Source: Halorussus vallis (lineage in GTDB: Archaea > Halobacteriota > Halobacteria > Halobacteriales > Haladaptataceae). From it: 64,000 nucleotides of DNA. The notes below the pieces were generated by a model. That model saw nothing but the letters and a program-made list of their open reading frames with translations, searched no databases and was not told where the DNA came from. Where the stretch lies: contig NZ_CP100000.1 of NCBI RefSeq assembly GCF_024138165.1, positions 3,844,001 through 3,908,000 on the forward strand. The letters run 5' to 3'. This document shows positions 5,541-7,445 of the stretch, piece after piece. Position numbers and translations under genes: made by a program. Within the stretch, counting starts at the first letter, position 1. Each line of letters opens with the position of its first letter.

Positions 5541-5714
5541 GCGGTCGACGCGGCGACTCCGAAGGCGCGTTTCCTTTTTTCGGGCTACCGTCGAGGTGAG
5601 CGTGACGGTTCGACGATTCCACGGTGGGGAGGACTCCGACCGGCGACCGGTCGACGGTCGACCCCCGACAATTAAGATCACCAACATGTTAATTCATAAA
5701 ATAAAACTAGAAAA

Positions 5715-5724
5715 AATATATTAG
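5715..5724 (+). promoter_or_regulatory. TATA-like box in an AT-rich island before the amidase gene
   Basis: AATATATTAG lies about 25 bp before ATG 5745. It is inside a strongly AT-rich tract (about 5670-5725) that contrasts with the GC-rich surroundings, which may mark acquired DNA or a regulated promoter. Confidence 0.6.
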
Positions 5725-5744: not shown

Positions 5745-6350
5745 ATGCAAATGCATTCCCGACGAAATATACTCAAGAAGTTCGGTGCGGCAAGTACTGC
5801 GAGTCTCGCCGGAGCGGCCGCCCTCACGGGGACCGCGGCGGCGAAACCCTCGGTCGACTGGGAGGCGGCCCACTCGAGCAACTACACGTCCGCCGACCGG
5901 GGCGCGGGCTACATCGACTGGATCGTCATCCACACCGTCCAGGGGTCGGCCCAGAGCGCGGTCAACTGGTTCCAGGACCCCGACGCCGACGTGAGCGCCC
6001 ACTACACCGTCGCCCAGGACGGCTACAGGTACCAGTCGGTCAGCGACATCAACATCGCGTGGCACGCGGGCGGGTCGAACTACAACACGTACTCCGTCGG
6101 CATCGAGCACGGCGGCTACGTCAGCGGTACCTACGAGGACGCCCAGTACCGGGCGTCGGCCAAGCTCGCCAGTTGGCTCTGCGACCAGTACGGTGTCCCG
6201 AAACAGCACCCGTCCAGCGTCCCCTACGACGCCGCGAACCCGGCGAACGGCGGCATCATCGCCCACTCCCAGGTTCCCGAGAGCACCCACACCGACCCCG
6301 GGTCCAACTGGGACTGGGACTACTACATCGACCTCGTCAACTCGTACTGA
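5745..6350 (+). CDS. Tat-exported N-acetylmuramoyl-L-alanine amidase-like (amidase_2/PGRP fold)
   Basis: 201 residues. A twin-arginine signal, SRRNILKKFG at residues 5-14, is followed by an alanine-rich segment ending near residue 33 (TAAAKPS). The rest matches the zinc amidase_2/T7-lysozyme fold: VIHT with likely zinc ligand His63, AHYTVAQDG, IAWHAGG, SVGIEHGG with the catalytic-type Glu121, IIAHSQVP with His174, and HTDPG with Asp184 as third ligand. These enzymes cut the MurNAc-L-Ala bond of bacterial peptidoglycan. Haloarchaea have no peptidoglycan, so a secreted activity against bacteria is the natural inference. The next gene is a second predicted peptidoglycan hydrolase in the same reading frame. 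Confidence 0.88.
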   Translation: MQMHSRRNILKKFGAASTASLAGAAALTGTAAAKPSVDWEAAHSSNYTSADRGAGYIDWIVIHTVQGSAQSAVNWFQDPDADVSAHYTVAQDGYRYQSVSDINIAWHAGGSNYNTYSVGIEHGGYVSGTYEDAQYRASAKLASWLCDQYGVPKQHPSSVPYDAANPANGGIIAHSQVPESTHTDPGSNWDWDYYIDLVNSY

Positions 6351-6374
6351 GAGAAATCCGCGACTCAGCAACTC

Positions 6375-7124
6375 ACGACGCGAAAATTCACCCGACGGAC
6401 GTTCGGCAAAGCACTCGGAACCGCGGCCACCGGTCTGGCCGTTCCCGCGACGCTCAGCGGGAGCGCGAGCGCCTTCAGCGACGGCGAGCGAGTCGAGGCG
6501 ACGACCGACCTCAACACCCGCCACCGACCCGGCCTCGAATCCGAAGTGGTCGGTACGATGGCGCCCGGCACGGTCGGGGAGGTCGTCAACGGTCCCACGA
6601 CCGAGGACGGCTACACCTGGTGGGGAATCCACTGGCTCGAAGCCGACATCTGGGGCTGGTCGGTCGAGCGGTACCTCGCGTCGAGCGGCGGCGGTAGCGG
6701 CGGCGCCGACCTCGTGTGGCCGATGAACGGCTACATCACTTCGCCCTACGGCCAGCGGTCGAGCGGTTTCCACGGCGGCGTGGACATCGGCCACAACGGC
6801 GAGATCGGCACGCCCATCTACGCCGCCCACGGCGGCACCGCCTACACGGCGTACGACTCGGGCGGATACGGCAACTACGTCTACATCGACCACGGGAACG
6901 GCTGGGAGACGGAGTACGGCCACGTCAACAGTTTCGGCGTCTCCGACGGCCAGACCGTCGCCCAGGGCGATTACATCGCCGGCATGGGCAACTCCGGAAA
7001 CTCGACGGGACCGCACCTTCACTTCGGCGTCGAGGTGAACAACGACCCGAAACCCATCCCCGGGAGCGACGGCCAGACCGTCTCCGCCGGCGACGCCATC
7101 CCTCGGGACTACAGCGGGCTGTAA
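6375..7124 (+). CDS. Tat-signal, SH3b-like and M23 (LytM) peptidase protein lacking a normal start codon
   Basis: The frame reads from just after the amidase TGA (6348-6350). It encodes TTRKFTRRTFGKALG, a good Tat motif, then a hydrophobic segment to SASAFS, an SH3b-like domain (GERVEATTDLNTRHRPG through WGWSVERYL), a Gly/Ser linker and an M23 peptidase with zinc motifs HGGVDIG and HLHFGVE. M23 enzymes cut peptidoglycan cross-bridges. No ATG, GTG or TTG occurs in frame between the amidase stop and the Tat motif; the codon where ATG would be expected is CTC (6372) followed by ACG ACG. The first usable start, GTG 6546, would remove the whole signal and half the SH3b domain. It may be a start-codon mutant, use a non-standard start, or need stop-codon readthrough. 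Confidence 0.7.
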   Translation, partial: TTRKFTRRTFGKALGTAATGLAVPATLSGSASAFSDGERVEATTDLNTRHRPGLESEVVGTMAPGTVGEVVNGPTTEDGYTWWGIHWLEADIWGWSVERYLASSGGGSGGADLVWPMNGYITSPYGQRSSGFHGGVDIGHNGEIGTPIYAAHGGTAYTAYDSGGYGNYVYIDHGNGWETEYGHVNSFGVSDGQTVAQGDYIAGMGNSGNSTGPHLHFGVEVNNDPKPIPGSDGQTVSAGDAIPRDYSGL

Positions 7125-7226
7125 TCCCCGAGAAACCGTAACTCCGGGTGGCCGGCGACCGCTTTCGACCCGCCTCGGGCCGGCGCCGACCAAACTTTCT
7201 TCCGGCCGCGGGACGTCGGTTTCGAC

Positions 7227-7445
7227 ATGGAGTACACGGTCCAGTACTACGACCTCGTGCTCGCGGCCATCTTCGCCACGATGGCGCTCGGCGCGGTCGT
7301 CGGTGCGGTCACGTCGCTCGCGCTCCCGACCGCCGTGACCGCGGCCGGCCTGCTCGCGGCACTCGCGGTCGCCCACGCCCTGTTCGTCAACGGACCGGTC
7401 GACGGTCCCGAGGACCTCACCGACGAAGTCGACGCGCTGAACTGA
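7227..7445 (+). CDS. Small membrane protein, function unknown
   Basis: 72 residues with two hydrophobic helices (about 9-32 and 34-53) and an acidic cytoplasmic tail ending DLTDEVDALN. No catalytic motif is visible. Acidic tail and codon use match the host. A strong hairpin lies 11 bp after the stop. It does not overlap its neighbours, so no functional link is shown. Confidence 0.65.
   Translation: MEYTVQYYDLVLAAIFATMALGAVVGAVTSLALPTAVTAAGLLAALAVAHALFVNGPVDGPEDLTDEVDALN

Follow-up and report, generated by a model that had tools for sequence, protein, structure and literature searches.

A chimeric Tat-signalled amidase, an inserted M23 peptidase gene lacking a standard start codon and a putative peptidoglycan-utilisation locus in the haloarchaeal genus Halorussus

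Two consecutive genes of Halorussus vallis resemble enzymes that cut bacterial cell walls, and raise the question of what such enzymes would do in an archaeon devoid of peptidoglycan. They occupy positions 5745 to 7124 of the window, i.e., the whole 64,000-nucleotide stretch of chromosome analysed here, taken from a near-complete genome (NZ_CP100000.1, positions 3,844,001 to 3,908,000). A first-pass annotation had placed this DNA in an archaeon and proposed a pair of secreted wall-cutting enzymes. The host is indeed haloarchaeal and belongs to the genus Halorussus, with same-genus relatives including H. limi and H. aquaticus, and the proposal draws support from homology as well as from published killing by haloarchaeal enzymes of this kind: a 2025 study described archaeal peptidoglycan hydrolases able to kill bacteria, and Halogranum salarium B-1 has the peptidoglycan hydrolases Woldo and Danwoldo (PMC12352652). 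The distribution of archaeal hydrolases is patchy, with an enrichment on plasmids; scavenging was proposed as an alternative to killing, and the choice between killing and feeding was left open (PMC12352652).

The reading that we favour, with moderate confidence, combines a functional Tat-secreted amidase, the plasmid derivation of its catalytic part, a putative utilisation locus and a recently inserted M23 gene that is probably silent or weakly expressed. The window genes belong to an already published kind, one of them being probably broken, and the plasmid locus is the newer lead.

A Tat-signalled amidase with an intact active site

The first gene and its upstream region comprise the following features:

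5707..5724, + strand: promoter-like element CTAGAAAAAATATATTAG of the chromosomal-type amidase
5745..6350, + strand: N-acetylmuramoyl-L-alanine amidase, Amidase_2/AmpD-like, 201 aa
5745..5843, + strand: Tat signal of the amidase, assigned to the chromosomal type by its identity to chromosomal orthologues

The ORF starts with ATG and encodes a single-domain protein that matches Pfam Amidase_2 (E 7.6e-31; 107.6 bits against a curated cut-off of 26), with AmpD (1j3g, E 1.3e-7) as the nearest solved structure and a twin-arginine (Tat) signal, MQMHSRRNILKKFG, at its N-terminus. Residues H63, E121, H174 and D184 are invariant in an alignment with 24 homologues, in agreement with the initial description of an amidase_2/PGRP-type enzyme with intact His63, His174 and Asp184. 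The window amidase shares the positions of the zinc ligands and the catalytic glutamate with AmpD-type Amidase_2 enzymes but differs from AmpD in two respects: AmpD is cytosolic whereas the window protein carries an export signal, and the position of the AmpD lysine is taken by His182. The mature amidase and the product of the M23 frame that follows it are acidic (pI 4.6 and 4.4, respectively), as expected for secreted proteins of haloarchaea. Median dN/dS values of 0.25 among the chromosomal amidase orthologues and 0.15 in the plasmid amidase clade point to purifying selection. The AT-rich promoter island initially noticed ahead of the pair is borne out by the recurrence of CTAGAAAAAATATATTAG in the orthologues G008, G017, G015, G011, G020, G023 and G024, where it lies at about -38 to -46; the element is absent upstream of the plasmid-type amidase genes. 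We propose that the amidase is secreted through the Tat pathway and would act outside the cell by stripping stem peptides off bacterial walls; peptides and sugars would thereby be set free and bacteria possibly lysed.

The amidase gene is chimeric: a chromosomal-type signal and promoter precede a mature part of the plasmid type.

5832..6350, + strand: converted tract, the mature part resembling the plasmid copy

This tract is 98.3% identical over 519 bp, up to the stop codon, to a paralogue on a plasmid of the same genome (G000:C3:200817-201335), and the mature codons of the two genes differ by seven synonymous and one nonsynonymous change. Identity between the two genes falls off at both ends of the tract. 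The signal stretch 5745-5804 is 70-81% identical to chromosomal orthologues but only about 50% identical to the genome's own plasmid copy. Such sharp boundaries fit gene conversion of the chromosomal amidase by the plasmid gene, and the catalytic part would thus have been copied from a paralogue that belongs to a putative peptidoglycan-utilisation locus. A source of the signal was also sought elsewhere in the genome and no significant match was found; the signal belongs instead to the chromosomal amidase lineage. The amidase of G010 (L059) likewise bears a chromosomal-type signal, with a mature part nearer the plasmid type in places, which suggests a second, independent conversion event.

An inserted M23 peptidase gene

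Downstream of the amidase, the following features were delineated, residues being numbered according to the alignment of the M23 frame with its orthologues:

6362..7182, + strand: inserted segment with the M23 gene (ends approximate); in orthologous loci the small ORF follows the amidase with no such segment between them
6375..7124, + strand: M23 peptidase frame without a standard start codon (Tat-like signal, SH3-like region, M23 domain)
6375..6377, + strand: ACG at the position of the M23 start ATG of relatives, from alignments
6477..6686, + strand: SH3-like region (sub-threshold), from alignment to orthologues with weak SH3_3 matches
6546..6548, + strand: GTG, the earliest standard start codon in the frame, inside the SH3-like region
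6768..7049, + strand: M23 catalytic domain with HxxxD (H141, D145), H191 and HxH (H222, H224), from Pfam and PDB 9gy1
7227..7445, + strand: small conserved ORF, directly after the amidase in relatives according to orthologous loci

Seven relatives share the gene order mcm-amidase-small ORF-acs with the window but lack the M23 gene. In L070, the counterparts of window positions 6364 and 7183 (2123 and 2139, respectively) are 16 bases apart. In the window, the open M23 frame spans 6351-7124 and the gene sits 24 nt behind the amidase. Its DNA is 80-81% identical to Haladaptatus versus about 76% to other Halorussus, whose M23 genes adjoin an unrelated gene. The M23-free loci of relatives and the affinity with Haladaptatus show that the gene entered the locus immediately downstream of the amidase, with loss of its native promoter; direct or inverted repeats of at least 7 bases were sought at the insertion ends and not found. 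Acquisition by transfer, suspected from the outset for the pair, is therefore upheld for the M23 gene. The pair is recent, and its adjacency is unique to the window among the Halorussus genomes examined. Neither this pair-creating insertion nor the chimeric amidase and its plasmid copy had been part of the first-pass description.

The M23 domain is well supported (Pfam E 8.5e-28; 96.8 bits against a cut-off of 28.7; PDB 9gy1, E 2.8e-26), and the zinc motifs HGGVD and HLH are intact. Domain score and HxxxD and HxH motifs are those of LytM/lysostaphin-type M23 peptidases, from which the window copy differs by the want of a usable start codon. In the 18 other relatives inspected (Halorussus, Haladaptatus and beyond), an ATG opens the M23 signal; the window differs from them by a T-to-C change, giving ACG, and by one extra base directly upstream. 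No ATG, GTG or TTG occurs in the frame between the amidase stop codon (6348-6350) and the GTG at 6546, such that the M23 gene is not complete with a standard start codon, and a product initiated at that GTG would lack the signal and retain only part of the SH3-like region. Consequently, a second Tat-exported protein is doubtful: of the Tat signals first assigned to both products, that of the amidase stands while the M23 frame is no ordinary Tat-exported ORF. Similarly, of the predicted SH3b-M23 architecture, the M23 domain and its motifs hold while the SH3b part stays below threshold, the window frame having no Pfam SH3b match at E 0.1 and the orthologues matching SH3_3 only below cut-off (E 1.9e-4 to 0.014). 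An AlphaFold2 model of the frame, built from six sequences, had a mean pLDDT of 36 and no conclusion was drawn from it.

The missing start could reflect a recent loss, initiation at ACG or an error in the base, and we consider a silent gene the likeliest case. We propose that a gene related to that of Haladaptatus was recently inserted and lost its ATG, the change to ACG leaving it probably silent or weakly translated. The frame is otherwise intact, with a dN/dS of 0.18 against Haladaptatus; together with the intact motifs, this value implies that the protein may still be made. Relative-rate tests with four outgroups (G014 was left out for its wrongly trimmed sequence) counted 22-26 amino-acid changes in the window lineage versus 10-14 in the Haladaptatus lineage (chi-square 2.6-6.4). 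The synergy once envisaged for the two enzymes finds no support in this strain, where the M23 gene has no usable start and where the adjacency sets it apart from the other Halorussus examined. The window illustrates the turnover of such enzymes: plasmid and chromosome exchange catalytic parts by copying, and genes arrive by transfer and are lost again.

The genome has a second match to the M23 domain, a distant one, at G000:C1:3176722-3177009, inside a 686-codon open frame; similar matches, covering profile positions of about 12-89, occur commonly in Halobacteriales.

Genomic context of the plasmid amidase paralogue

The plasmid copy of the amidase is surrounded by genes for NagZ, NamZ, a serine hydrolase, AnmK, a HAD phosphatase, GNAT and SDR proteins, an Opp-type transporter with a Tat lipoprotein-like binding protein, a creatininase-family protein and two Tat-signalled GH18 proteins. 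NagZ (NF003740, E 1.6e-69), NamZ (NamZ_N, E 3.7e-80), AnmK (NF007148, E 5e-136, above its cut-off) and the serine hydrolase (E 2e-58) were recognised by domain matches. Plasmids of H. limi and H. aquaticus exhibit the same gene order, including the ABC transporter and the two GH18 genes.

Bacteria salvage MurNAc with NagZ, NamZ, AnmK and MurQ, a route known from Bacillus and from Gram-negative recycling. NagZ, NamZ and the muramic-acid kinase AnmK are clustered with a transporter on the plasmid as they are in bacteria, here together with an amidase. Unlike in the bacterial systems, the host is an archaeon, a signal peptide is not evident in NagZ and NamZ, and no MurQ was found, the four genomes tested yielding no match over the family cut-off and only weak matches to long open frames. 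Since NamZ and AnmK act on muramic acid, the locus points to bacterial walls rather than to chitin, which the GH18 enzymes could also take. The scavenging of walls, which the first-pass annotation had offered as an alternative to an antibacterial function, gains support from this locus. The pathway would start with the secreted amidase and the GH18 enzymes and proceed with uptake via the Opp-type transporter; the glycan would then be split by NagZ and NamZ and the muramic acid phosphorylated by AnmK. Nutrition may be the main purpose of such a system. A literature search on muramic-acid catabolism in haloarchaea returned nothing, which is not proof of its being unpublished.

Related, putatively mobile loci, mostly on smaller replicons or contigs, comprise an IclR regulator, NagZ, NamZ, a putative glycoside hydrolase, a serine hydrolase, AnmK and an Opp-type transporter. 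We see an even chance that this locus, present in about 8% of the sampled haloarchaeal species, is mobile and lets an archaeon feed on peptidoglycan, with Tat-signalled amidases and M23 enzymes cutting outside the cell and a new route replacing MurQ at the muramic-acid step. The most constant companion of NamZ and AnmK (20/20 loci) is the putative glycoside hydrolase, a candidate for the missing muramic-acid step; its representative at L020:6946-8100 (- strand) has no Pfam or NCBIfam match. L020 (G000:C3:191400-210900) and L092 also hold a PIG-L deacetylase, an enolase-superfamily protein and a SelA-like enzyme, which look like functions of amino-sugar catabolism.

Distribution across Halobacteriales

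Of 293 Halobacteriales genomes, 24 encode NamZ, and precisely these 24 also encode AnmK; the two genes are separated by 2.7-16 kb in 23 of the genomes, and this core recurs in several families. Amidase_2 proteins are encoded in 19 of these 24 genomes versus 49 of the 293 overall and, outside the family of Halorussus, in 4 of 9 NamZ/AnmK genomes (p 0.007). The amidase lies inside the NamZ/AnmK locus in only 4 of the 24. Of the nine Halorussus genomes that have the amidase locus on the chromosome, five lack both NamZ and AnmK; hence the amidase is independent of the utilisation locus, and killing and scavenging are inseparable for the window amidase. The occurrence of a conserved archaeal locus of muramic-acid enzymes beside a secreted amidase nonetheless makes the feeding hypothesis directly testable.

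The stronger M23 type occurs in 29 of the 293 genomes, 24 of which also encode Amidase_2. In 4 of the 293 genomes an amidase gene adjoins an M23 gene, versus 0.26 expected. Such counts are inflated by the relatedness of the genomes; outside the family, six genomes share Amidase_2 (26 genomes) and M23 (10 genomes; p 8e-5). Halocatena marina (G282), which also has a NamZ/AnmK locus, carries three adjacent secreted genes with SLT (transglycosylase), M23 and Amidase_2 domains.

Weapon, food or neither

Woldo, a secreted haloarchaeal hydrolase with an M23 domain and a Tat signal, is of the same kind as the window genes but possesses two PG-binding-1 domains, whereas the window amidase has a single domain (PMC12352652). 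The window M23 frame has only the SH3-like region before its catalytic domain and, unlike Woldo, no start codon. The published definition of these hydrolases as modular, i.e., a catalytic plus a cell-wall-binding domain (PMC12352652), does not cover the single-domain amidase, nor the M23 protein with its sub-threshold SH3-like region.

That both genes are expressed as a secreted antibacterial weapon, the M23 protein initiating at ACG within an amidase-M23 operon, agrees with the open frame, the intact motifs, the excess of neighbouring pairs, the Halocatena marina tandem and the killing by other haloarchaeal hydrolases (PMC12352652). We nevertheless deem it unlikely: all other relatives inspected keep the ATG, the M23 gene has lost its own promoter and its lineage has accumulated about twice as many amino-acid changes as that of Haladaptatus. 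A normal M23 gene whose start was erased by a sequencing or assembly error is more doubtful still; although only one substitution and one extra base separate the window from its relatives at this point, the changed base has no bearing on the insertion or on the gene's loss of its native promoter. A single stop separates the two in-phase frames, and reading through the TGA at 6348-6350 would produce a single amidase-M23 fusion. Such a fusion would bury the second signal peptide, and the TGA is an ordinary end of the amidase in orthologues, which makes read-through extremely improbable.

An archaeal or algal substrate instead of peptidoglycan would be compatible with H182 at the usual lysine position of AmpD. 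We give this view little credence, as the zinc ligands and the glutamate are conserved and the amidase paralogue is placed among enzymes specific for muramic acid.

Haloarchaeal Tat-signalled proteins sharing one SH3-like module, the same as that of the window M23 frame, were also observed (L005, L006, L007 and L008). They are often encoded in tandem, and the module is joined to transglycosylase, M23, amidase or glucosaminidase domains.
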